A stretch of DNA of 64,000 nt from Lactiplantibacillus garii (GTDB taxonomy: Bacteria > Bacillota > Bacilli > Lactobacillales > Lactobacillaceae). Positions 1,363 through 12,934 of the stretch are shown in pieces. The notes beneath the pieces were generated by a model that was not told where the DNA came from, did no database searches, and was given only the letters and a program-made list of their open reading frames with translations. The stretch's first letter is position 1. The number at the start of each line of letters is the position of its first letter. Made by a program: the position numbers and the translations under genes. Where the stretch lies: positions 62,001 to 126,000 of the forward strand of contig NZ_QWZQ01000001.1 in NCBI RefSeq assembly GCF_003885105.1. The letters are read 5' to 3'.

Positions 1363-1533
1363 GTGTGCCAAAAGTCGGTTAGCCGGTGAGCATTAACGGC
1401 GGATGGCGCATAATCCTGAGCTTGGATTGTTTGACATACGGGGTTAAGCGGAGCCCGTTGACTTTTGAAACCCGTTTCGACAATAATTATTCGAAGATGA
1501 ATAAGAGGCTGTGACATAAGTCACAGCCTCTTA
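1363..1533 (+). repeat. Structured 3'-end repeat, copy 1 (long form), ending in a terminator
   Basis: This noncoding block follows the ABC-F gene. It starts GTGTGCCAAAAGTCGGTTA, contains AAGCGGAGCCCGTTGACTTTT, then AATTATTCGAAGATGA, and ends in a terminator hairpin. The same ordered blocks recur on the minus strand at 28126-28225 after mprF. AAAAGTC near the left end can pair with GACTTTT. This copy has about 65 extra bases between the two arms. Confidence 0.75.
1502..1533. terminator. Bidirectional terminator between the ABC-F and araC-type genes
   Basis: A perfect 14-bp stem (1502-1515 with 1520-1533) with loop ATAA is followed by T5 on the plus strand. The right arm includes the stop codon of the convergent AraC-type gene. 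Confidence 0.85.
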
Positions 1534-2367
1534 TTTTTGGTTCCGGTTAGTCCCCTGACGCCGGTATTGCGTTGGCGATAGGCCGTAAATCTTTTCAAAC
1601 GCCGCGATAAAGCGCTGCGCACTACTAAAACCGTTATCCAGCGCAATATCAATAATTTTCATCGAAGTGGTGTTTAATTGGTTTTCCGCCATCTCGACCC
1701 TTAAGTTTAGTAAGTAGTCCCGAAATCCCAAGCCCACTTCCTGTCGAAATAGGTGGCTAAAATATGTGGGGGATAACTGGTAGTGGCGGGCAAATTGTCG
1801 CAAAGTTAGTTTGGAACGGTAGTCCGCGTGCAGGGTCGTCAGCGTCGACTTGATCCGGTAGTCACAATGAATGTGCTCTTCACCGCCCCGGATGAGCCGG
1901 GCCCGCGTGGTTATCAGGTACAAAATTTGGTAAAGCTGCGCACCGATCCGCAACTGGTACCCCGGTGTCCGTTGCCGATACCAGTGTCCAATCAACCGCA
2001 TCTGAGTGATTAATTGCCGTGTTAACGCCGAGTTTCCCCGCAATTCAAACTTTACCTGATCATAATTAGGCAAAGCACGTTTAATAAAATCATAGGAGAT
2101 CAACAAAGTAACGGCCTTAACGTGTGCACTTGGTGACTTCATTTCGTGTAAGGCCCCCGAATTGACCAGTATTAATCCCGGTGCCGTAACGCGGCTCGTC
2201 TGGTTATCAATGGTCACGGTGACGTCCCCACTCGTAATTAAATCTAATTCTAAACTTCGATGCCAATGTAACGGGATCGTACGGGCCTTCCCGGTTAAAT
2301 CTTGTAACAGTAACATGGCCGGAAACCGGGCGTTGACCCGGACACGTTCATAATTAGAAACTGACAC
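1531..2367 (-). CDS. AraC-family transcriptional regulator
   Basis: This 278-residue protein has an N-terminal cupin-like sensor half (about residues 10-150) and a C-terminal AraC/XylS domain with two helix-turn-helices. The first is around LRQFARHYQLSPTYFSHLF; the second, around IIDIALDNGFSSAQRFIAAF, leads to the conserved GLSPTQYRR end. It is the last gene of the esterase-IIC-AraC operon, and its start overlaps the end of the IIC gene by 14 bases. That coupling suggests it controls its own operon in response to the sugar or ester handled there. The ligand cannot be read from the sequence. Confidence 0.85.
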   Translation of the reverse strand: MSVSNYERVRVNARFPAMLLLQDLTGKARTIPLHWHRSLELDLITSGDVTVTIDNQTSRVTAPGLILVNSGALHEMKSPSAHVKAVTLLISYDFIKRALPNYDQVKFELRGNSALTRQLITQMRLIGHWYRQRTPGYQLRIGAQLYQILYLITTRARLIRGGEEHIHCDYRIKSTLTTLHADYRSKLTLRQFARHYQLSPTYFSHLFRQEVGLGFRDYLLNLRVEMAENQLNTTSMKIIDIALDNGFSSAQRFIAAFEKIYGLSPTQYRRQGTNRNQK

Positions 2368-3439
2368 TGAGTTTTGGCCTCCCAGCCCAACTATTCACTG
2401 CAAAACTAATCATAAATGCCACCGGTGCTCCAATCATCAGCCCCAAGTACCCGGGCTGACCAATGTAGGCCGGAATCGTAACCACACTCGGAATGATAAA
2501 CGCCGTGACCTTTGTTCGAAACGCGCCAACGATTAAGCCGCCCACGGCCGCTGCCAGCATACTACCAACAAACTGCCGCCGATGATCCAAACCAATGCCA
2601 AAAACGGACGGCTCACCTACACCTAACAACGCCGTGACGACACCAGAAAGCGCGGCAACCCGTAACTGTGGTTCCGCCTTTGCCTGAACGTACACGGCCA
2701 GTGCCATTCCAGCTAACGCAAACAAGCTGACTCCTAGCGAGATCAAGATCGTATCATCGCCCTTAACCGCGATATTATTGATGGCAACCGGTGCCAACGC
2801 CGTACTGATTTCCAACATAATAAAGACTGGAAACAGCCCCGCTAATAGTGCCATTGCAATTACCGGACTGACTGCCATCGTATTGTTGTACCCTAGTGTA
2901 ACGCCCTTAGCGACTAAATTACCAACGGGACCTAGGATAAACAGGGTTATTGGTAAAACAATTAATAAACTGATCAATGGGACAAACATCGCTTGGATCA
3001 ATTTCGGCAAAACCTTTTTAAGCCCCCGTTCGACAAAGTGCAGTAGAATCACTGCAAAAATAATGGGTAATACGGTTGAGTCGTAACTTGTATTGGGTAA
3101 TTTTAATCCTAAAAACGTCGTTCCCCGTTTTAACATCGCGGCCAACTGGGGCTGCACTAAGAAAGCCGCTAGTAAAACTGCCGTAAACCGGTTCGTCTGC
3201 AACACTTTCGCACTCGTAAAGGCTAAAAAGATTGGTAAAAAGTTAAAAAACACGTTCGATAATAACCATAAAACTTGGTAAGTTGGATTTTGAACCGTTA
3301 ACCAGTGCAACGTGATGCAAATCGTTAACCCACCTTTTAACAAGCCCACGGCGCATAGAATATTAACGACCGGTCCAAAAATGTCGCCAATAAACTGAAT
3401 CCCCTTCTCAAAATAGGGGTGTTTGTTAATGACCGTCAT
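2354..3439 (-). CDS. PTS EIIC-like membrane permease without IIA/IIB domains
   Basis: The 361-residue protein has about 8-10 hydrophobic segments and a GVGEPSVFGIGL motif, matching the G-I/V-x-E-P-A/S motif of glucose/sucrose/beta-glucoside-family EIIC. It has no N-terminal EIIB cysteine domain and no C-terminal EIIA domain, and neither is encoded nearby. Its ATG overlaps the TGA of the upstream esterase (ATGA, 3436-3439), so the two are translationally coupled. It may use IIA and IIB from another system or may be PTS-derived but phosphorylation-independent. Substrate unknown; co-expression with an esterase suggests an esterified or acylated glycoside. Confidence 0.75.
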   Translation of the reverse strand: MTVINKHPYFEKGIQFIGDIFGPVVNILCAVGLLKGGLTICITLHWLTVQNPTYQVLWLLSNVFFNFLPIFLAFTSAKVLQTNRFTAVLLAAFLVQPQLAAMLKRGTTFLGLKLPNTSYDSTVLPIIFAVILLHFVERGLKKVLPKLIQAMFVPLISLLIVLPITLFILGPVGNLVAKGVTLGYNNTMAVSPVIAMALLAGLFPVFIMLEISTALAPVAINNIAVKGDDTILISLGVSLFALAGMALAVYVQAKAEPQLRVAALSGVVTALLGVGEPSVFGIGLDHRRQFVGSMLAAAVGGLIVGAFRTKVTAFIIPSVVTIPAYIGQPGYLGLMIGAPVAFMISFAVNSWAGRPKLSVSF

Positions 3440-4230
3440 GCTGCTCGCCCCACTTTACTAAATGCTGCCAAAGTCTTTTTAATCGCGGCGTCCCAGAAAT
3501 CCCAATCATGGATGCCGGGCCATTCTGCATAGTGGACGGGTAACTGATTAGCCAATAGTAACTGCTTAAAGTCCTGATTATCCTGATACATAAAATCCTG
3601 TTGTCCCTCATACTGTAACAATAGCGGTAGCCGTGCTTTATGTGCACATAGTTCCGGCGTAATCAGCGCCTTTAAACCGTACTGCGCATCACTCGGGTTG
3701 GGCGTCCCAAATACCGTTTGGTAGATTGGCTCAAATATGGACCGCATGTCAGCCGGTGCTTCTGCCTTCAAGTGTTCCAGTGAAACTACACTTGAAATTC
3801 CCGCAACGCCCTTGTACTTTGCTGGCTGTGTCAGTCCCAGTAACCACGCACCGTAACCCCCCATTGAAATTCCGGCAATAAAGGTGCGTTGCTGATCAAT
3901 TGGGAACCAGTTTGCCATTCGATAGGGTAATTCTTGCTGAAAATAATCGTACCAGCGTTTCCCGTAAACCGCATTCCGGTAAAAACTGTGTTCCCCGTTT
4001 GCCATCACGACAATAAAGTGATAATCACTGGCATAGCGTTCAACGTTCGTCAGGCGCGTCCAACCACTCGCATTGTCACCGACACCGTGTAATAAATACA
4101 AAACCGGGTAGCGGGTAACCGCTGCTGGGGTGGTGAACTCCGTTTTGGACTTATCATCGGGAATAATCACCTGGGCCTCCGTATCGTGGCCTAAAATGCT
4201 GGAAAAATAATTCATTGTTAATAAAGCCAT
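3436..4230 (-). CDS. Alpha/beta-hydrolase esterase (EstA/tributyrin-esterase family)
   Basis: The 264-residue protein lacks a signal peptide, so it is cytoplasmic. The start (NYFSSILGH) and the LYLLHGVGDNASGW stretch match the EstA/esterase-D-like family. The nucleophile elbow is GISMGGYG, with Ser near residue 117, and the catalytic His lies in GIHDWDFWD near the C-terminus. Family members hydrolyse short-chain acyl esters or S-formylglutathione-like substrates. It is the first gene of an operon with a PTS IIC and an AraC regulator, which suggests intracellular deacylation of an imported sugar ester. That is inference. An SD-like GAGAAGGG precedes the ATG. Confidence 0.85.
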   Translation of the reverse strand: MALLTMNYFSSILGHDTEAQVIIPDDKSKTEFTTPAAVTRYPVLYLLHGVGDNASGWTRLTNVERYASDYHFIVVMANGEHSFYRNAVYGKRWYDYFQQELPYRMANWFPIDQQRTFIAGISMGGYGAWLLGLTQPAKYKGVAGISSVVSLEHLKAEAPADMRSIFEPIYQTVFGTPNPSDAQYGLKALITPELCAHKARLPLLLQYEGQQDFMYQDNQDFKQLLLANQLPVHYAEWPGIHDWDFWDAAIKKTLAAFSKVGRAA

Positions 4231-4419: not shown

Positions 4420-5457
4420 TTAGCGTGGCATGTTCGGCATCCAATCAAATTCCAAACTCGGATCCGCGTTTAACGTGGCATCACCAAATTGGTGGTGCTG
4501 GTACTGAACGTAGCCGGCTGCACCAATCATGGCACCGTTGTCACCACAAAGTTTGAGCGGTGCCAAAATTAAATCGGTATCCGGAAATTCTTGTGGTAAA
4601 ACGGCTTGTAGCCGTTCACGCAAGCCGTGATTAGCGGCAACCCCTCCGGCCAACACGAGTTGTTTAACCGGGTACTGCTTCAAGACTCGGAGTGTTTTAC
4701 TGGTCAAAACGTCAACGACACTGGCCTGAAAACTAGCTGCCAAGTCGTTTTTATCCAAAGTTTCGCCAATCTGATCCGCATGGTGCACGGTATTGATAAA
4801 GGCACTCTTTAAACCACTAAAACTAAAATCATAGTTATCTTCATCGATCATTGCCCGTGGAAATTTAAAAGTGTCGTGGCCCTGGTGCGCCATTTCGTCA
4901 ATCACTTTACCGGCTGGATACGGCACACCCAGCACCCGGCCAATTTTATCGTAGGCTTCCCCGGCAGCGTCGTCACGGGTCTCACCAATAATTTCAAACT
5001 GACCGTCCGCTTGCATGTAGACCAGTTCGGTATGCCCACCGGAAACCAGTAACGCCATCAGCGGAAACTCAAAGGGCTTAACGAAGCGGGCCGCGTAAAT
5101 GTGGCCAGCCATGTGATTTACCGGAATTAACGGCAAGTTGTGGGCGTACGCCACGGTTTTAGCCGCGTTGACCCCCACCAACAACGCGCCAACTAATCCG
5201 GGACCGTACGTGACGGCGACTGCGTCTAAATCATCGTAGGTGACGTTTGCTTCGGTCATGGCTTCTTCAATACAAATTGTAATTTGTTCAATGTGGTGGC
5301 GACTGGCAACTTCCGGGACCACCCCGCCGAACCGTTTATGACTATTAATTTGCGTCGCAATAACGTTTGATAAAATTTCGTGCCCGTCGCGAATTACGGC
5401 GACACTCGTTTCGTCACAACTCGACTCAAACGCTAAAATCAAATTCTGTTTCTCCAC
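4420..5457 (-). CDS. tsaD: tRNA N6-adenosine threonylcarbamoyltransferase TsaD
   Basis: TsaD transfers the threonylcarbamoyl group from TC-AMP to A37 of ANN-decoding tRNAs, working with TsaB and TsaE. The 345-residue protein opens with [13 protein letters not shown] and contains the metal-binding NHMAGH motif (about residues 112-117), SGGHTEL and the late [12 protein letters not shown] segment, all diagnostic of the Kae1/TsaD ASKHA fold. It is full length. It is the last gene of tsaB-rimI-GNAT-tsaD. TsaE is not in the window. Confidence 0.97.
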
Positions 5458-5929: not shown

Positions 5930-6500
5930 CAGCTGCGGCCGGTAAGTGGTAGGTCATGTCGATGGCATCTTCGTGATCCCCAAAGTAGTAGCGCTTTTTA
6001 ATGCCCGTTTTTTCAAAGCCCATACTAGTGTAGAGACGCTGAGCGTTCGTGTTGCTGTACCGAACTTCCAACGTTACCGTTTTGTAGTTTAGTTCAACGG
6101 CACGGTCCACCATGGTTTTCATCATAAAATGACCAAGCCCGTGACCCTGAACGTCCGGATGAACCGCGATGTTCGTGATGTGCGCATCTAAACGCCGGTC
6201 ATCAAAAGCACAACCACAAAACGCCACTAATCGGTCTTCGTGACGCATGACAATGTAAAAGCGACCGCTCTGACGTCGCAGTTCAGTCTTAAACGCGTTT
6301 TCGTCCCACGGCGTTTGACCCGCATACACGGCCCGTTCAATCGCTAACATTTCGGGAACGTCCGTGATCAGCGCCTGTGAAAGGTAGTATCCGGTCCCGG
6401 CTACCTGAACAATGTGGTTATCAATCGTCAAAACCTTTTGGCGGTGCTGACTATGATTAGTTGTAATTTTTTGAAAGTATTCCTTAAATCTTTTCAACAT
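5922..6500 (-). CDS. rimI: Ribosomal-protein-alanine N-acetyltransferase RimI-like
   Basis: A GNAT protein of about 192 residues with motif A VQGHGLGHFMM and the RimI-type ending NTNAQRLYTSMGF plus KKRYYF. RimI acetylates the N-terminal alanine of ribosomal protein S18 in E. coli; in Firmicutes the gene is linked to tsaB/tsaD as here. An in-frame ATG at 6509 is only 3 bases from the GAGG motif, so I prefer the ATG at 6500. The gene overlaps the end of tsaB by 17 bases. The basic N-terminal extension of about 40 residues is longer than in E. coli RimI. Confidence 0.88.
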   Translation of the reverse strand: MLKRFKEYFQKITTNHSQHRQKVLTIDNHIVQVAGTGYYLSQALITDVPEMLAIERAVYAGQTPWDENAFKTELRRQSGRFYIVMRHEDRLVAFCGCAFDDRRLDAHITNIAVHPDVQGHGLGHFMMKTMVDRAVELNYKTVTLEVRYSNTNAQRLYTSMGFEKTGIKKRYYFGDHEDAIDMTYHLPAAADD

Positions 6501-7209
6501 AGGGCGCATGATCCTCTTCTGGGTGCTTAGCTTGCCAATCGCGTTCGGCCTGTGTCAAACGTAAGTAGTTGGGCACGAAGGCGTGCAAGTGTTCTACGGG
6601 TTGGACCGTTTGTCCCAGTAACCCCAGGACGCCGGCTTGTGGCAAGTCGAGTTGGGGCTGGGCCCGAACAAACTGGTCCCCTAACTGTTCCTTTAGCGGT
6701 GCTTCATACTTCGCAACGTCGCTGCCAATGAAAACGACCGGTTCGCGGTAAGCCGCAAGCCGCTGTTCCCACGCCGCAAGACTAACGTGTTGGTCGGCAA
6801 TGACGTTGACTGGCCGGTGATTTTGAATACGGTATAACCCCGTAAAAACGTTGTCGCGACGGGCGTCAAATAGCGGTGACACCAATTGGCCTTCCGTTAG
6901 AACGTTGCCAGCCAAAGCTTCTAAGCTTGATAAACCAACTAATTCCTTATGTAAAGTGAAGGCCAACGTTTTTGCAGTCGTCACACCGATCCGTAGACCG
7001 GTGTAGGATCCCGGGCCGGCAGCGACAACGACCCGGTCCAAATCAGCGGGTTGCATCCCGGCTTGGGCTAACGACCGTTCAATAATGGGTAATAACGTAC
7101 TACTGTGGTTGCGACCAACGTTGGTGGTCGTCGTGGCCAGTATCTTAGTATCCTCTAAAACGGCCACACTTAGCGGACGGTTGGAAGTATCAATAGCCAA
7201 CAACTTCAT
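6484..7209 (-). CDS. tsaB: tRNA t6A biosynthesis protein TsaB
   Basis: TsaB is the non-catalytic ASKHA partner that dimerises with TsaD in t6A synthesis. The 241-residue protein starts LLAIDTSNRPLSVAV and contains AAGPGSYTGLRIGV (about residues 64-77), the family signature. It is the first gene of the operon tsaB-rimI-GNAT-tsaD. A GAGG-type SD lies ahead of its ATG, with -10-like sequence (TATGATAAG) about 40 bases upstream on the minus strand. Confidence 0.96.
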   Translation of the reverse strand: MKLLAIDTSNRPLSVAVLEDTKILATTTTNVGRNHSSTLLPIIERSLAQAGMQPADLDRVVVAAGPGSYTGLRIGVTTAKTLAFTLHKELVGLSSLEALAGNVLTEGQLVSPLFDARRDNVFTGLYRIQNHRPVNVIADQHVSLAAWEQRLAAYREPVVFIGSDVAKYEAPLKEQLGDQFVRAQPQLDLPQAGVLGLLGQTVQPVEHLHAFVPNYLRLTQAERDWQAKHPEEDHAPYVEKI

Positions 7210-7383
7210 ATTTTTACAGACTCCTCATTTTGAATTACTTCACATATCTTATCATAATTTGATTACTTTGAAAGCTTTCCGGCCGGAACCAACCAATTCG
7301 GGTTAGGTGTAAGTCGGAACCGTTTTTACTTGATCAAGAACGGCCTTACCAATTTAACCCGTGTAATCAATTCGTAAATATCA

Positions 7384-7433
7384 TTTACACAACTTATACA
7401 TATACTTCACTAATCCTTTTTAGCACATTTACA
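7384..7433 (+). promoter_or_regulatory. PHO box: five PhoP half-sites at 11-bp spacing upstream of phnD
   Basis: Hexamers TTTACA (7384-7389), TATACA (7395-7400), TTCACT (7406-7411), TTTTTA (7417-7422) and TTTACA (7428-7433) recur at exactly 11 bp. The Bacillus PhoP half-site is TT(A/T/C)ACA with about 5-bp spacers, usually four in tandem. The array ends about 11 bp before the candidate -10 box of the phn promoter. It implies activation by PhoP~P during phosphate starvation. Confidence 0.75.
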
Positions 7434-7443
7434 TTGCCTTGTT

Positions 7444-7449
7444 ATGCTA
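7444..7449 (+). promoter_or_regulatory. Candidate -10 box of the phn operon promoter
   Basis: TATGCT lies 10 bp after the last PHO-box hexamer, with no recognisable -35. That fits a PhoP-activated promoter. Transcription would start near 7456, giving a 30-base leader with the SD GGAGG at 7470-7474. Confidence 0.55.
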
Positions 7450-7486
7450 CACAAGTAACTAAATTACTTGGAGGTAATTGAAAATT

Positions 7487-8542
7487 ATGTCAAAGCTCAG
7501 CAAGTCTCTCTTAGGTCTTTCATTTGTATCGGTTCTAGGTCTCGGTCTAGCCGGCTGTGCGAGTGGTACTAGTACCAGTTCAAGCAGCAACAGCAGCGCC
7601 AGCAAGGGCAAAGCCATCACGGTCGTTTTCTACCCGAACGAATCGGCTAAAAGTTTCGCCGGTTCCCGTGACGCCTTAAAGAAATCCATCGAAAAAGCAA
7701 CTGGTAAGACGGTTAAGTTACAAACTACGACCGACTACAACGTTGCCATCCAAGCGATTTCTTCTGGTAAAGCCCAATTAGCTTACATGGGGGCCAACGG
7801 TTACATCCAAGCCCACAAGTTAAGTAAGGACGTGGTGCCATTCGCCGCCCAATCTGATGGTGAAGGAACCTTGAAGAAAGCCACTTACAACTCATACTTA
7901 ATGGTACAACAAAAAGATGCCAAAAAGTATGAAGAAAACGGTAAGTACAGCATTAAGAACATCAAGGGCAAGAAGATGTCCTACGTTTCAAACAGCTCCA
8001 CTTCCGGTTTCTTAGTACCAACGGCCGAAATCACCCGTGAATTCAAGGTCAAGGATAGTGACAAGGATAAGTTAACTCAAAGTGGCCAGTTCTTCAGCAA
8101 AGTCCTTTACGGTGGTTCTCACCAAGGTTCAGCCGTCAACTTGATTAAGGGTGACGCCGACGTTGCCGCCTTTGATGACGCTGATTTGATGCCGTACTTG
8201 AAAGTAACTAAGGGTTCTTGGGATAAAGTTGGGTCAACCTTCACCGTTAAAGACGACGCCGAAGCACCGTTTAGCAGCTTAAAGGGCAAATCCGTTGTTA
8301 ACATTGCGATGATGCCTGTTCAACAAGGTCCGTGGGTCTACAACACGAAAGCTTTGACTAAGGATGATCAAGAAAAGATTGCTAAAGAATTTACGTCACA
8401 ATCATTTGCTGATAACGAAAAAATCTTCTCAAAACCAGGTGCCAAAACACCAATGATGTTCCCTAAGAAGACGAACAAGACCAAATTAGTTAAGGTTACG
8501 GATAAATGGTACGCCCCAACTCATAAGTTAGTTGGTTATTAA
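7487..8542 (+). CDS. phnD: Phosphonate ABC transporter substrate-binding lipoprotein PhnD
   Basis: This is the extracellular phosphonate-binding lipoprotein that feeds the PhnC/PhnE importer. From the ATG at 7487 it has 351 residues. It opens with a lipoprotein signal peptide with lipobox LAGC (Cys24), then a Ser/Gly linker and a type II periplasmic binding fold with the PhnD-family motifs YPNESA and AYMGANGYI. A TTG at 7478 in the same frame is only 3 bases from the GGAGG SD, so the ATG 12 bases away is the better start. It is the first gene of phnD-phnC-phnE-phnE-phnX-phnW. Confidence 0.93.
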   Translation: MSKLSKSLLGLSFVSVLGLGLAGCASGTSTSSSSNSSASKGKAITVVFYPNESAKSFAGSRDALKKSIEKATGKTVKLQTTTDYNVAIQAISSGKAQLAYMGANGYIQAHKLSKDVVPFAAQSDGEGTLKKATYNSYLMVQQKDAKKYEENGKYSIKNIKGKKMSYVSNSSTSGFLVPTAEITREFKVKDSDKDKLTQSGQFFSKVLYGGSHQGSAVNLIKGDADVAAFDDADLMPYLKVTKGSWDKVGSTFTVKDDAEAPFSSLKGKSVVNIAMMPVQQGPWVYNTKALTKDDQEKIAKEFTSQSFADNEKIFSKPGAKTPMMFPKKTNKTKLVKVTDKWYAPTHKLVGY

Positions 8543-8579
8543 ACCGATCTCCATTTAGGTATTCAGGAAAGGAACTGCT

Positions 8580-9353
8580 ATGCTCAAGGTCATTCAACTA
8601 GATAAAACTTACGGTTCAAATAAGCACTCGCTCAAAAACGTCAACTTCACCGCACAACCCGGAGAAGTGACGGCCATCATTGGGCCTTCAGGTGCTGGGA
8701 AAACAACGATTCTGCGGAGTATTAATCAGTTAATTCGCGATGATAGTGGGCAAATTTTATTAGATGGACAGGATATTCGCCAGGCTAATAAAGCCGGCTT
8801 ACGCAAAATTCGTCACCACATTGGGATGATCTTTCAAAACTATAATTTGATCAGCCCCCTCACCGCTTTAGAAAACGTCTTGCACGGGCGGTTGGGAGCC
8901 AAGTCCACGGTAGCGGGTATGCTGGGTCTTTACAGTAACGAAGAAAAGACTGAAGCCCTTGAACTTCTAGACGAAGTGGGCTTAAAAGAATACGCCTACC
9001 AACGGTGTGATCAACTTAGTGGTGGTCAACAGCAACGGGTCGGCATTGCCCGTGCCCTGATGCAACATCCCAAAATGATTTTATGTGATGAACCAATTGC
9101 GTCCTTAGACCCTAAGTCCACTAAAATCGTCATGGATATTTTACGCCGACTCGCGAAAGACAAACAACTGATTATTCTTATCAACCTTCATCAAGTTGAC
9201 ATTGCGATGGAATACGCCGACCACGTTGTTGGCATCAACAGTGGCGCCATCGTCTTTGAAGGGGCAACCAAAACAGTTGATGACGACGTTTTACAAAAGA
9301 TTTATCGCCAAACTGACGACGCTAAAACGGTGGTGAGTGCAAATGAAAACTAG
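8580..9353 (+). CDS. phnC: Phosphonate ABC transporter ATP-binding protein PhnC
   Basis: The cytoplasmic ATPase of the phosphonate importer, 257 residues. Walker A is GPSGAGKT (about residues 34-41), the Q-loop is at GMIFQNYNL, the signature LSGGQQQRVGIARAL and Walker B MILCDEPIASLD, with the H-loop at INLHQVD. These match PhnC. The SD AGGAAAGGAA sits just before the ATG. Its end overlaps the start of the first phnE gene by 11 bases. Confidence 0.95.
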   Translation: MLKVIQLDKTYGSNKHSLKNVNFTAQPGEVTAIIGPSGAGKTTILRSINQLIRDDSGQILLDGQDIRQANKAGLRKIRHHIGMIFQNYNLISPLTALENVLHGRLGAKSTVAGMLGLYSNEEKTEALELLDEVGLKEYAYQRCDQLSGGQQQRVGIARALMQHPKMILCDEPIASLDPKSTKIVMDILRRLAKDKQLIILINLHQVDIAMEYADHVVGINSGAIVFEGATKTVDDDVLQKIYRQTDDAKTVVSANEN

Positions 9354-10146
9354 TTTCCAATCACCCCAACAATTTTTCCGTCAACGGCGGTTACGTTTAT
9401 CAGTCGTTTTAATCATTTTGATTGGAATTTACGTCACTTCGATGGCCCTCGTAAACTTTCAAACTTGGACCTCGATTGCTAAAATTCCGGCAGGTTTAAT
9501 TTGGTTGTTCCACAACTTTATTCCCACGGAACGTTCGATTTCTTACTTAGGACCCATTCTTTATCAGTTATGGCGGACCTTGCTCGTTTCAATTTCTTCC
9601 ACCATCGTTGCGAGTCTGTTTGCCCTCATCTTTGCCATTCTGGGTGCTAAGACGACGACCCCTAGTCCCGTCTTCCGGATTGTGATCCGGTTTGGGGCCT
9701 CACTACTCCGGAATATTCCGGTGGTCGCGTGGGCAATGATTCTCCTGTTTTCTTTCAAACAAAGTGACTTCACCGGGTTCTTAGCCTTGTTCTTTATGAC
9801 CTTAGGCTACCTCACCCGGGCTTTCACGGAAACCATTGAAGACCTCGACGCCGAAAAGTTACAAGCTTTACAAGCCGTCGGTGCTAACTATTTTCAATGC
9901 GTTTTCTGCGGCGTGTTGCCCGAAGCTGCCAGTACGTTGACCAGTTGGGTCCTGTATATGATTGAAAACAATTTACGGGACGCCACCCTTGTTGGGCTGT
10001 TAACCGGGACCGGTGTCGGGTTTCTCTTCGACTACTATTTCAAGAGCTTCCGCTATGACGCCGCCGGTCTGATCGTCTTGTTAATTGCCATCTTGGTTAT
10101 TTTATTAGAGTTAACGTCCACTCAAATACGGAGGGCCATTGCATGA
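9343..10146 (+). CDS. phnE: Phosphonate ABC transporter permease PhnE (first copy)
   Basis: A 267-residue membrane permease with about six transmembrane helices and the cytoplasmic EAA-type loop LQALQAVGANYFQCVF, which contacts PhnC. I chose ATG 9343, which follows a GGTGGTGAG SD, over the in-frame GTG at 9337. It overlaps phnC and ends with an ATGA overlap into the second phnE. Paired PhnE permeases in one operon are usual in Firmicutes and probably form a heterodimer. Confidence 0.93.
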   Translation: MKTSFQSPQQFFRQRRLRLSVVLIILIGIYVTSMALVNFQTWTSIAKIPAGLIWLFHNFIPTERSISYLGPILYQLWRTLLVSISSTIVASLFALIFAILGAKTTTPSPVFRIVIRFGASLLRNIPVVAWAMILLFSFKQSDFTGFLALFFMTLGYLTRAFTETIEDLDAEKLQALQAVGANYFQCVFCGVLPEAASTLTSWVLYMIENNLRDATLVGLLTGTGVGFLFDYYFKSFRYDAAGLIVLLIAILVILLELTSTQIRRAIA

Positions 10147-10997
10147 TTGAAAATAGTCAACCTAAACCGAAAACAATTCAGCCAGTCGCACCCCAGACTA
10201 AGCACGTTTCCTTAGTCACCCGCCCCCGCAAAATTTTACGCGGGGTCCTCGCGGGTCTGGCAATCATCACTATTTACTCCCTCGCAACGTTAAATAACGG
10301 GAATTTAGTGTTTGCGGACGCTTTTAAAAGTCTCGGGGTCAACCTGAACGCCATGTTCTTACATCCCGGAGTTGGTCAGGATACCTTTGGGCAATTGTTA
10401 CGCGCACTCGTTACGAGCGTTTCTTTGGCCATGCTGACCACCCTGCTCGGAGCGGTCATCGCCTTCTTCATTGCCGTGGGCGCCGCCCGCAACTTAGCAC
10501 CTAGCTGGTTAGCCACTACCATCAAAGCGGTTATGGCCTTCATTCGCGCTATTCCGACCATTCTGTGGGTTCTGATTTATTCCGTCGTTATGGGTTTGGG
10601 GGCCAGTGCCGCCGTGGTTGGTTTGACCTTCCACAGTGTGGCCTACCTCGTTAAAGCGTACTCGGAAAGTATTGAAGAAACCTCTCAAGATACGATTGAA
10701 GCTTTAAAAGCTAGCGGCGTTGGTTTTTGGCCAATTGTTTTTCAAGCCATCCTGCCATCAATCGTTCCCGCACTGCTCAGTTGGACCTTCATTCGTTTTG
10801 AAATCAACTTTGCCAACGCGGTGGCCGTTGGGGCCGCTGCCGGCGCGGACGACATTGGCTACTTCCTCTTCATGGCGGGTAGTTTCTACTTTAACTTCCA
10901 CGAAGTTGGTTTAATTGTCTACTTACTCTTAGCCGTTGCCATCGTCCTCGAATTGGTTTCCATGAAACTACGGGGCCACTATTTAAAGCATAACTAA
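10143..10997 (+). CDS. phnE: Phosphonate ABC transporter permease PhnE (second copy)
   Basis: The second integral membrane permease, 284 residues, with an N-terminal cytoplasmic extension rich in Pro/Lys/Gln before the first of about six helices. The EAA loop reads TIEALKASGVGFWPIVF. It starts inside the stop codon of the first phnE (ATGA). The two permeases are clearly diverged, which argues for a heterodimeric channel rather than a recent duplication. Confidence 0.93.
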   Translation: MIENSQPKPKTIQPVAPQTKHVSLVTRPRKILRGVLAGLAIITIYSLATLNNGNLVFADAFKSLGVNLNAMFLHPGVGQDTFGQLLRALVTSVSLAMLTTLLGAVIAFFIAVGAARNLAPSWLATTIKAVMAFIRAIPTILWVLIYSVVMGLGASAAVVGLTFHSVAYLVKAYSESIEETSQDTIEALKASGVGFWPIVFQAILPSIVPALLSWTFIRFEINFANAVAVGAAAGADDIGYFLFMAGSFYFNFHEVGLIVYLLLAVAIVLELVSMKLRGHYLKHN

Positions 10998-11023: not shown

Positions 11024-11818
11024 ATGACTATTCAAGCAGTTATTTTTGATTGGGCCGGTACGACCATTGACTATGGTAGCCGGGCCCCCATCGTCGCTTT
11101 CCAAAAAGCGTTCGCAAACGTCGGCATTACCATTACCGAAGCTGAAATTCGCCAGGATATGGGGCTTGACAAATACACCCACATCCACAAAATCATTAGC
11201 TTACCCGCCGTTCAAAACGATTGGCAAGCCCGTTTCCAAGTTTTACCTTCAAACGATGATTGTGACCGCATTTACCACGATTTTAAGTCCATTCTCTTGG
11301 CTTCCCTAACGGACTTTGCCCAGTTAAAGCCGGGTATGGATCAAGTGATCAGTTACCTTAATGAACACCACATCGCGTACGGCACCACAACCGGTTACGA
11401 TGCCGAAATGTTAGCCTTAGTTTTACCGATTGCCGCAAAACAGGGCTACCGGCCGACCGTTAACATCACCTCAGAGCAAACCAACGGTATCGGTCGACCG
11501 GCGCCCGCCATGCTGGAATTGGCCAGTGATAAGTTAGAAATCACCGCCGCTAACAGCGTGATGAAAGTCGGTGATTCAATCAACGATATCCTCGAGGGTC
11601 AAAACGCGGACGCCATCAGCGTTGGAATCGTCGACGGGAGTAACTTAATGGGCCGTTCACAAGCTGAATTTGACGCCCTTTCAGCCGCCGAACAAGCCGC
11701 TTTACGGGCTCAGGTCGCTGGTGAATACGAAAAAGTTGGCGCGGATTACATTCTGCAATCAATGGCCGAGTTACCGGCCCTGATTGACAGTATTAACCAA
11801 CCCGTTACGGATCAGTAG
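11024..11818 (+). CDS. phnX: Phosphonoacetaldehyde hydrolase (phosphonatase) PhnX
   Basis: PhnX cleaves the C-P bond of phosphonoacetaldehyde to acetaldehyde and phosphate. The 264-residue HAD-superfamily protein has the nucleophile Asp9 in FDWAGTT, where the WAGT signature is specific to phosphonatase, and Lys50 in GLDKYTHI at the position of the Schiff-base lysine of Bacillus cereus PhnX. The distal HAD Asp is in VGDSINDI. With the next gene it completes degradation of 2-aminoethylphosphonate. SD AAAGGAG precedes the ATG. Confidence 0.95.
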   Translation: MTIQAVIFDWAGTTIDYGSRAPIVAFQKAFANVGITITEAEIRQDMGLDKYTHIHKIISLPAVQNDWQARFQVLPSNDDCDRIYHDFKSILLASLTDFAQLKPGMDQVISYLNEHHIAYGTTTGYDAEMLALVLPIAAKQGYRPTVNITSEQTNGIGRPAPAMLELASDKLEITAANSVMKVGDSINDILEGQNADAISVGIVDGSNLMGRSQAEFDALSAAEQAALRAQVAGEYEKVGADYILQSMAELPALIDSINQPVTDQ

Positions 11819-11833
11819 TTCGGAGGAAAAACA

Positions 11834-12934
11834 ATGAAACAACCTTACTTATTATTAACACCCGGCCCACTAAGTACCACGCCCACGGTTAAAGAAGCCA
11901 TGCAAATTGACTACTGTACCTGGGATAGTGATTACCGGCACGTTACGGAAACCATTCGCCAACAAATCTTAGCGCTTGCTCAGGCTAATCCCGACGTTTA
12001 CACGACCGTCCTCATGCAAGGTAGTGGCAGCTACGGAGTTGAAGCTACGATTGGGACCGCCATTCCCCGTGAAGGCGCCGTTTTAATGGTTGCCATCAAC
12101 GGAGCGTACGGCCGCCGGATCAGTGAAATTGCGGACTACTATGGGATTCACCACGTCGACGTGGTCTTTAACGAGGACGAAGCCGTTGATCCGGTCCAGG
12201 TCGAAGCAGCGCTTGCTGAACATCCCGAGGTCACCCACTTCGCTACCATTCATAGTGAGACCACGACCGGGATTCTCAATCCTATCGAGCAACTGATGCC
12301 CATGATGCACGCACGCGGTATTGTGACCATCATCGATGCCATGTCCAGCATGGGGGGCGTCCCGATCAACGTTGACGAACTGGACTGTGACTACATCATT
12401 AGTAGTGCTAACAAGTGTGTCCAAGGCGTCCCCGGCTTTGCCTACATCATTGCGAAGCAAACGACCCTCGCCCAAACGGCCGATAACGCCCGTTCACTGT
12501 GCTTAGACCTTTACGCGCAGTGGCGCGCGATGACTAAGCAACCTGGTAAGTGGCGCTTTACGTCACCAACCCACGTCGTTCACGCCTTTGCGCAAGCTTT
12601 AGTTGAACTGCAAGCGGAAGGCGGCGTACTACCACGCTACCGGCGTTACAGCGCTAACCAAGAGCTGCTTAGTCACGGTATGCAAGCCCTCGGATTTGAC
12701 CTCGTAATCGATCCGGCCGTTCAGGGCCCCATCATTACGTCGTTTAAATACCCAACGCACCACTTTGATTTCGCTGATTTTTACCAATTCATTAAGGAAC
12801 GGGGCTTTGTCATCTATCCTGGTAAAGTCTCAACTATTCCTAGTTTCCGGATTGGTACCATTGGTGACGTTGACACCACCGATATCAAACGACTACTCGC
12901 CATTGTTAGTGATTACCAACAATTAAACCAGTAG
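11834..12934 (+). CDS. phnW: 2-aminoethylphosphonate--pyruvate transaminase PhnW
   Basis: PhnW transfers the amino group of 2-aminoethylphosphonate to pyruvate, giving phosphonoacetaldehyde (the PhnX substrate) and alanine. The 366-residue class V aminotransferase starts LLLTPGPLSTTPTVK. It has the PLP Asp168 in IIDAMSS and the Schiff-base Lys194 in SSANKCVQG, the position used in Salmonella PhnW. It is the last gene of the phosphonate operon; the SD GGAGG lies 16 bases after the phnX stop. Confidence 0.95.
   Translation: MKQPYLLLTPGPLSTTPTVKEAMQIDYCTWDSDYRHVTETIRQQILALAQANPDVYTTVLMQGSGSYGVEATIGTAIPREGAVLMVAINGAYGRRISEIADYYGIHHVDVVFNEDEAVDPVQVEAALAEHPEVTHFATIHSETTTGILNPIEQLMPMMHARGIVTIIDAMSSMGGVPINVDELDCDYIISSANKCVQGVPGFAYIIAKQTTLAQTADNARSLCLDLYAQWRAMTKQPGKWRFTSPTHVVHAFAQALVELQAEGGVLPRYRRYSANQELLSHGMQALGFDLVIDPAVQGPIITSFKYPTHHFDFADFYQFIKERGFVIYPGKVSTIPSFRIGTIGDVDTTDIKRLLAIVSDYQQLNQ

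Follow-up and report, generated by a model that had tools for sequence, protein, structure and literature searches.

A PHO box-like array of 11-bp repeats precedes the phosphonate operon phnDCEE-XW of Lactiplantibacillus garii and very probably serves PhoP

The DNA analysed here, called the window, is a 64,000-nucleotide stretch of the Lactiplantibacillus garii genome and corresponds to positions 62001-126000 of its contig C70. It carries, on the + strand, a run of genes in the order phnD-phnC-phnE-phnE-phnX-phnW, i.e., a transporter followed by the two enzymes of 2-aminoethylphosphonate breakdown. phnD (7487-8542), whose ATG at 7487 has GGAGG upstream, encodes the substrate-binding lipoprotein of a phosphonate/phosphate ABC transporter; the protein passes only the broad TIGR01098 model (115.2 bits, cut-off 112.05) and lies below the PhnD equivalog cut-off (95.5 vs 261.1). 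It is followed on the same strand by phnC (8580-9353; TIGR02315, 363.7 bits, cut-off 266.1), by the permease genes phnE1 (9337-10146; TIGR01097, 240.0 bits, cut-off 216.7) and phnE2 (10143-10997; TIGR01097, 174.7 bits, below the equivalog cut-off of 216.7), by phnX for phosphonoacetaldehyde hydrolase (11024-11818; TIGR01422, 323.4 bits, cut-off 220), and by phnW for 2-aminoethylphosphonate--pyruvate transaminase (11834-12934; TIGR02326, 601.3 bits, cut-off 400.8). A dedicated PhnCDE transporter is indicated by PhnC and PhnE1, both above cut-off, with PhnD a broad-family member only and PhnE2 below; PhnW and PhnX, both above their equivalog cut-offs, mark a phosphonatase operon. The phnDCEE-XW run contains no C-P lyase genes; the "complete phosphonate operon" of a preliminary description is complete for the 2-aminoethylphosphonate (phosphonatase) route. 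The divergent neighbour tsaB (6484-7209, - strand; TIGR03725, 183.6 bits) lies outside the system and bounds the intergenic region. Elsewhere in the window, 1531-4230 on the minus strand holds one run of genes for an AraC-type regulator, a PTS IIC-like protein and an esterase-like protein; the PTS protein matches a IIABC profile from position 95 only, with no IIB/IIA part.

Direct reading of the + strand upstream of phnD bore out the five hexamers at an exact 11-bp period that had been described there (7384-7433). With the -10 hexamer taken as -12 to -7, slot 1, TTTACA (7384-7389), spans about -71 to -66; slot 2, TATACA (7395-7400), and slot 3, TTCACT with the core TTNAC (7406-7411), start at about -60 and -49; slot 4, a degenerate TTTTTA (7417-7422), occupies about -38 to -33, where a -35 element would stand; and slot 5, TTTACA (7428-7433), lies at about -27 to -22. 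Against TTNACA, slots 1 and 5 are exact, slots 2 and 3 have one mismatch each, and slot 4 has two. An extended -10 follows, TGTTATGCT (7440-7448, + strand), made up of the hexamer TATGCT (7443-7448) and a TG one base upstream. The gap between slot 5 and the -10 is 9 bp, not 10 bp as first given, and is identical at the pstS1 and pstS2 promoters. The earlier statement that the promoter has no -35 is right in that there is no good one, but a 4/6 match to TTGACA, TTAGCA (7420-7425), stands at the place set by a 17-bp spacer. The phnD promoter was absent from the list of a consensus promoter scan. Rfam gave no match over 7000-8600 up to E 1, and hence no known leader RNA.

To weigh the array against chance, five TTNACA slots at 11-bp steps were scored (maximum 25) at 181,706 positions, i.e., on both strands of 91 kb made up of the window, C70:35000-54999 and C70:55000-61999. 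Position 7384 scored 21 and was the sole position at or above that score. One more position, the pstS2 promoter, scored 20, and a score of 19 was found at the pstS1 promoter and at 7395, the latter a register shift of the phnD array. First-order Markov resamples of the tsaB-phnD intergenic region reached 21 in 3/20,000 cases. A search for four TTNACA repeats, with three mismatches allowed, was also tried and given up: it missed the phnD array, because slot 4 raises the need to four mismatches, and matched one other site (C44).

The preliminary description had proposed asking whether pst genes carry the same array, and they do. Upstream of pstS1 we found TTTACA-N5-TTTACA-N5-CATATC-N5-TTTACA-N9-TATTAT, and upstream of pstS2 TTTACT-N5-TATACA-N5-TTTACA-N5-ATCATT-N5-TTTACA-N9-TAGTAT. 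All three promoters have a degenerate penultimate hexamer and a gap of 9 bp from the last hexamer to the -10; slot 1 is variable or absent at promoters other than that of phnD. A loose pattern of slots 2, 3 and 5 plus the -10 (17 fixed bases), which matches the phn promoter, was run without mismatches over the 2.97-Mb genome (158 contigs) and hit four places: pstS1, pstS2, phnD, and an operon with a small ORF and a gtrA-like gene. The pst genes of the same genome thus carry the element, at both pstS1 and pstS2, with 0 mismatches. With up to three mismatches this genome gave 26 matches vs 6 for the control, which makes weak matches unreliable. With up to one mismatch the motif is precise enough to have given 119 matches, 4 to 9 in each of 21/21 Lactiplantibacillus genomes, against 0 in the same 21 genomes for a reversed-pattern control that preserves base composition but not dinucleotides. 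The loose pattern lay within 300 bp upstream of 41/42 PstS genes over cut-off in these genomes; the single PstS gene without it is in G011, where a pstS1-type match sits at the end of another contig.

Conservation was examined at 16 Lactiplantibacillus-type phnD loci (L002-L017), which come from 14 strains or MAGs, two of them with a second phn copy; one locus, L003, is a MAG counted by identity. First copies of phnD in Lactiplantibacillus are 80-92% identical to the one here. Slot 1 is TTTACA in 16/16 loci, slot 2 is TATAC in 15/16 (AATAC in L010), slot 3 is TT[TC]AC in 16/16, and slot 5 is kept in 16/16. The cores of slots 1, 2, 3 and 5 are thus nearly invariant, while only 2/20 spacer columns are. 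Some genomes of the genus have a further phn copy preceded by the same array (L016, L017, L165, L176, L177), although some of these loci may be one genome counted twice. More widely, the anchor TTTAC[AG]-N9-TANNNT is present in 42/51 named phnD loci and absent in 9/51. At the phnD loci L031, L035, L041, L042 and L049, the slots besides the last score at most 4/5, most of them 1-3.

For the family at large we used a strict pattern, an exact TTTACA in slots 3 and 5, on 101 Lactobacillaceae genomes; it does not match the phn promoter itself, where slot 3 is TTCACT. The strict array was present in 43/101 genomes, and its reversed control in 0/101. Of its 56 sites, 47 lie within 300 bp of pstS. The switch proposed before phnD is of an ordinary kind; across much of the Lactobacillus family, genes for phosphate uptake have an array of this layout in front of them.

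These collections bear on slot 4. The weak fourth hexamer had been noted before as a weak match; TTTTTA is indeed degenerate, but a weak slot 4 is usual in such promoters and is not a blemish of this one. Slot 4 columns carry 0.5-1.3 bits each at the 16 phnD loci, and slot 4 is CATATC at pstS1 and ATCATT at pstS2. A perfect slot-4 hexamer occurs in 0/56 strict family sites, the pattern leaving slot 4 free; scores of 0, 1, 2, 3 and 4 out of 5 occur in 8, 15, 15, 12 and 6 sites, with a mean of 1.88. Since the mean hexamer scores of ten neighbouring offsets at the same sites run from 0.96 to 2.21, slot 4 is no better than its neighbours, and as a rule there is no hexamer signal there. The genus part of the slot-4 count covers 33 of the 119 Lactiplantibacillus matches. 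Slot-4 degeneracy is a strong tendency and not a fixed rule, because L024 and L048, two of the 26 anchored phnD loci from other genera, have a perfect hexamer in slot 4. Two of the 16 Lactiplantibacillus-type loci, L004 and L007, score 4/5 in slot 4. From its position, we infer that sigma region 4 occupies the -35 turn and that PhoP binds on either side.

Other genes stand behind such arrays. In relatives, these include proteins with Y_phosphatase3, LamG plus phosphodiesterase, PAP2 and histidine-phosphatase domains (one protein of each tested), with starts that by eye resemble signal peptides; according to an excerpt of PMC4415409, Pho regulons commonly include extracellular phosphatases and phosphate transporters. 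There are also genes with no evident tie to phosphate: GtrA-like, MFS-like, ADP-ribosylglycohydrolase-like (by eye) and antitoxin-like. At G000:C110:947-1000 and at L170-L173 and L182 an array precedes a roughly 80-aa ORF and, in most cases, a GtrA-like gene; the ORF has no Pfam match (one protein tested), and, judged by eye from the matched sequences, the site recurs in the 21 Lactiplantibacillus genomes. A one-mismatch array before a SocA/Panacea antitoxin-like gene (G000:C91:1422-1475; L071, L174) may be due to chance.

Two kinds of candidate RNA were noted behind PHO-like promoters. One is a candidate small RNA of 81-95 nt (about 90 nt at G000:C82:about 4889-4977; L175, L204), seen in 12/21 Lactiplantibacillus genomes (also L203, L205, L206, L208-L210, L212, L213, L215-L217); three further pattern matches look like chance, the control also giving 3. 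Its promoter is PHO-like, with slot 3 TTTAC, slot 5 TTTACA and a -10. A 5' hairpin is predicted in 10/12, and a terminator-like hairpin of varying sequence follows. At five of its loci Rfam, at gathering scores, named the nearby Ref68 (Lacto-3) and not the candidate. The other is a conserved stretch, perhaps an untranslated element, that lies further downstream of the array at L150, L151, L154 and L163 and also at L162 and L180. The first four have a short ORF after the array (36 codons in L150, by eye), and no such ORF is present in L162 and L180. Rfam at gathering scores gave no match in L150, L154, L162 or L163.

The hexamers alone cannot separate PhoP from other OmpR-type regulators. A PhoP-type response regulator (L056) is encoded at C70:43807-44532, 25 kb from the phnD promoter, just before a 469-aa ORF and pst. 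Its receiver scores 159.4 bits with 1mvo (PhoP) vs 123.0 with 2zwm (yycF), both of B. subtilis. The 469-aa ORF directly downstream is assigned as PhoR by position only; with that assignment, the genome encodes both PhoP and PhoR. A second response regulator, L058 (C69), which from its sequence we take to be WalR-like, is 48.5% identical to the PhoP of this genome. The helix compared between them, presumably the DNA-reading one, is RIVDIHISHLREKIE in PhoP and RTVDVTVRRLREKVE in the WalR-like regulator.

The family distribution of the array was set against that of the regulators. A WalR-like match (E up to 1e-85) was found in 101/101 genomes and canonical PhoP in 57/101 (E up to 1e-68), and 31 genomes have the strict array and canonical PhoP together. 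In 26/31 of these, phoP is followed on its own strand by the array, 1.4-1.8 kb further on in 25 and 3.95 kb further on in one. The strict array is present in 31/57 genomes with canonical PhoP vs 12/44 without (Fisher 0.008), a weak association; 26/57 canonical-PhoP genomes thus lack it in its strict form. The 12 genomes with the array but not canonical PhoP have pstS-like and further pst-like genes behind it in 11/12 cases, and G023 has no recognisable pst or phosphatase gene behind its three arrays. All 12 have a PhoP-like gene. When genomes with PhoP or the PhoP-like regulator are taken together, the strict array is found in 43/72 vs 0/29 with neither (Fisher 2.5e-9), a split that is partly post hoc because the PhoP-like regulator was defined after the exceptions had been seen; both the PhoP threshold of E 1e-68 and the PhoP-like cut of E up to 1.7e-13 were set by the analyst. 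Counted by genus, the figures are 19/29 vs 0/11 (1.9e-4), and among PstS-bearing genomes 43/72 vs 0/26. The 29 genomes without a PhoP-type regulator have PstS in 26/29 and WalR in all. Activation by PhoP is well supported in that the array tracks PhoP-type regulators although WalR is present in 101/101 and PstS in 26/29. The earlier reading of the array as a PhoP site is thus strengthened, as far as sequence comparison goes, by the layout at pst and by a distribution over 101 genomes that follows PhoP-type regulators and not WalR.

The same distribution bears on the most direct alternative, that the array is a WalR (YycF) site and the operon answers to the state of the cell wall and not to phosphate. 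The WalR box is TGTWAH-N5-TGTWAH, and the other strand of the array reads TGTAAA-N5-TGTAAA, which fits it; the genome also encodes the WalR-like regulator described above. A WalR site would be expected wherever WalR is, independent of PhoP, but with a WalR-like regulator in 101/101 genomes the strict array is in 0/29 of those without a PhoP-type regulator, and the genes behind it are pst and phn, plus some with phosphatase domains. WalR was rejected as the regulator on this co-occurrence, and we regard this reading as very improbable.

Nearly as improbable, in our estimate, is that the array is real but PhoP represses from it, or is just one input among several, in which case phn would show no simple rise when phosphate falls. 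A protein bound at slot 5 would sit between the -35 place and the -10 and could block polymerase there, and the region does contain a 4/6 -35. On the other hand, the lack of a good -35 at the phnD promoter suits an activator, and the same layout precedes pstS; Pho regulons activate phosphate transporters among other members (PMC4415409, in excerpt). It is scarcely credible that the array is AT-rich promoter DNA whose 11-bp periodicity arose by chance and which has no regulator: slots 2, 3 and 4 do depart from TTTACA, and a few of the Markov resamples do reach its score, yet it has the top score of the 181,706 positions, its cores are conserved at all 16 loci, and the controls gave nothing in 21 and in 101 genomes.

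The PhoP-like gene was found in 17/101 family genomes and lies 126 bp to 4.4 kb from pstS in 17/17. The profile used to find it was built from the N-terminal part of seven proteins, six from the 12 exceptions and one from G100; 19 weaker rows, with E of 1.5e-12 or more, were left out, and several of these fell at canonical phoP positions. It also detects the gene in the remaining 6 exceptions, within 4.4 kb of pstS in each, independently of its building. We read seven of the proteins (L186, L188, L191, L192, L194, L195, L202). Their receivers have lost the acidic pair of the phosphorylation pocket, with SQ, TK, TS, TN or similar in place of the DD of PhoP, and retain the acceptor aspartate. 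Pfam, run on two of the PhoP-like proteins, found the DNA-binding domain only; in a profile comparison the N-terminal part still aligned with the PhoP receiver (97.9%). In their DNA-binding parts 37-45 of 73 residues are identical to PhoP and 23-39 of 73 to the WalR-like regulator, the identity with PhoP being the higher in all seven, narrowly so in L186 (42 vs 39). The presumed DNA-reading helix of the PhoP-like set is R(I/M)(V/I)D.H(I/V)S(H/N)(L/I)R.K. Three PhoP-like proteins outside the seven, those of G034, G109 and G043, score low (77, 60 and 51 bits), and their receivers may be less degenerate. We put at about even the odds that some Lactobacillaceae use the PhoP-like protein to read the PHO array without a phosphorelay, sensing phosphate by another route, perhaps contact with Pst/PhoU or a ligand.

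The B. subtilis PHO box for PhoP consists of four TT(A/T/C)ACA repeats with spacers of about 5 bp. The phnD array resembles it in hexamer, in direct orientation and in its 11-bp period, in standing upstream of a -10 without a good -35, and in having pst among its targets. It differs in its order: after three repeats (only two at pstS1) comes a degenerate slot, then a single repeat, which stands 9 bp before the -10. Four contiguous good repeats, as in B. subtilis, were not found at phnD, pstS1 or pstS2, slot 4 being degenerate at each; because of slot 4 we place the array among PHO boxes in general and not under the exact B. subtilis layout. As in PHO boxes generally, 11-nt direct repeat units with a conserved core occupy 7384-7433, and the array stands just 5' of a -10 that lacks a good -35. 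In E. coli, according to excerpts of PMC4415409, the PhoB box has two 11-nt direct repeat units, PhoB contacts sigma, and phn uptake is a member of the Pho regulon. The phnD array is like that box in its 11-nt direct repeats and proposed head-to-tail binding, and unlike it in core sequence, which is CTGTCAT in E. coli (PMC4415409, excerpt). Unlike phnDCEE-XW, the phn operon of E. coli carries genes for C-P lyase (PMC9947105, excerpt).

In lactobacilli, phoPR is described upstream of pstSCAB1B2-phoU (PMC11084836, excerpt), and the order of ORFs here looks like that locus, with PstS and the response regulator alone confirmed by profile. The same excerpt reports intermediate arsenate uptake without phosphate for a phoP mutant of Lp. 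plantarum WCFS1, which is in line with PhoP acting on pst. The main text of that paper, as available, contains none of the terms box, phn, phosphonate, binding site or TTTACA, and has promoter once, for a lactococcal promoter. Among the matches listed for open-licence papers there was no PHO box study of phn in lactobacilli. For L. pentosus AP2-16 after adaptation to olive oil, a pstS, phnE, phnX and phnW are reported down, with phnC and glycerol-3-phosphate transporter genes also down according to a loosely worded sentence (PMC8553220, excerpt); this is co-variation and no test of a phosphate response, and expression of further genes, ribosomal ones among them, also dropped.

Taken on the sequence evidence, the array is very probably where the phosphate-starvation regulator PhoP binds, and we consider it highly likely that 7384-7448 is a PhoP-dependent promoter from which phnDCEE-XW is activated at low phosphate. 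When phosphate is low, the kinase PhoR would phosphorylate PhoP. PhoP~P would then bind the TTTACA-type hexamers in head-to-tail order; as these recur once per helical turn, its monomers would lie on one face of the DNA, with slots 1-3 as the upstream part and slot 5 just before the -10. The degenerate slot 4 would leave the -35 place to sigma region 4, which PhoP would contact instead of a real -35. RNA polymerase would thereby be recruited to the extended -10 and phnDCEE-XW switched on. The cell would take up 2-aminoethylphosphonate, the probable substrate, and PhnW, then PhnX, would release its phosphate.

In sum, the array yields a phosphate regulon that can be tested in Lactiplantibacillus, whose members include food and probiotic strains. 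Sigma is predicted to take the -35 turn in such promoters, and in some relatives PhoP would have been replaced by a regulator that may not be phosphorylated. A further prediction is that a phosphonate serves these bacteria as a phosphorus reserve.
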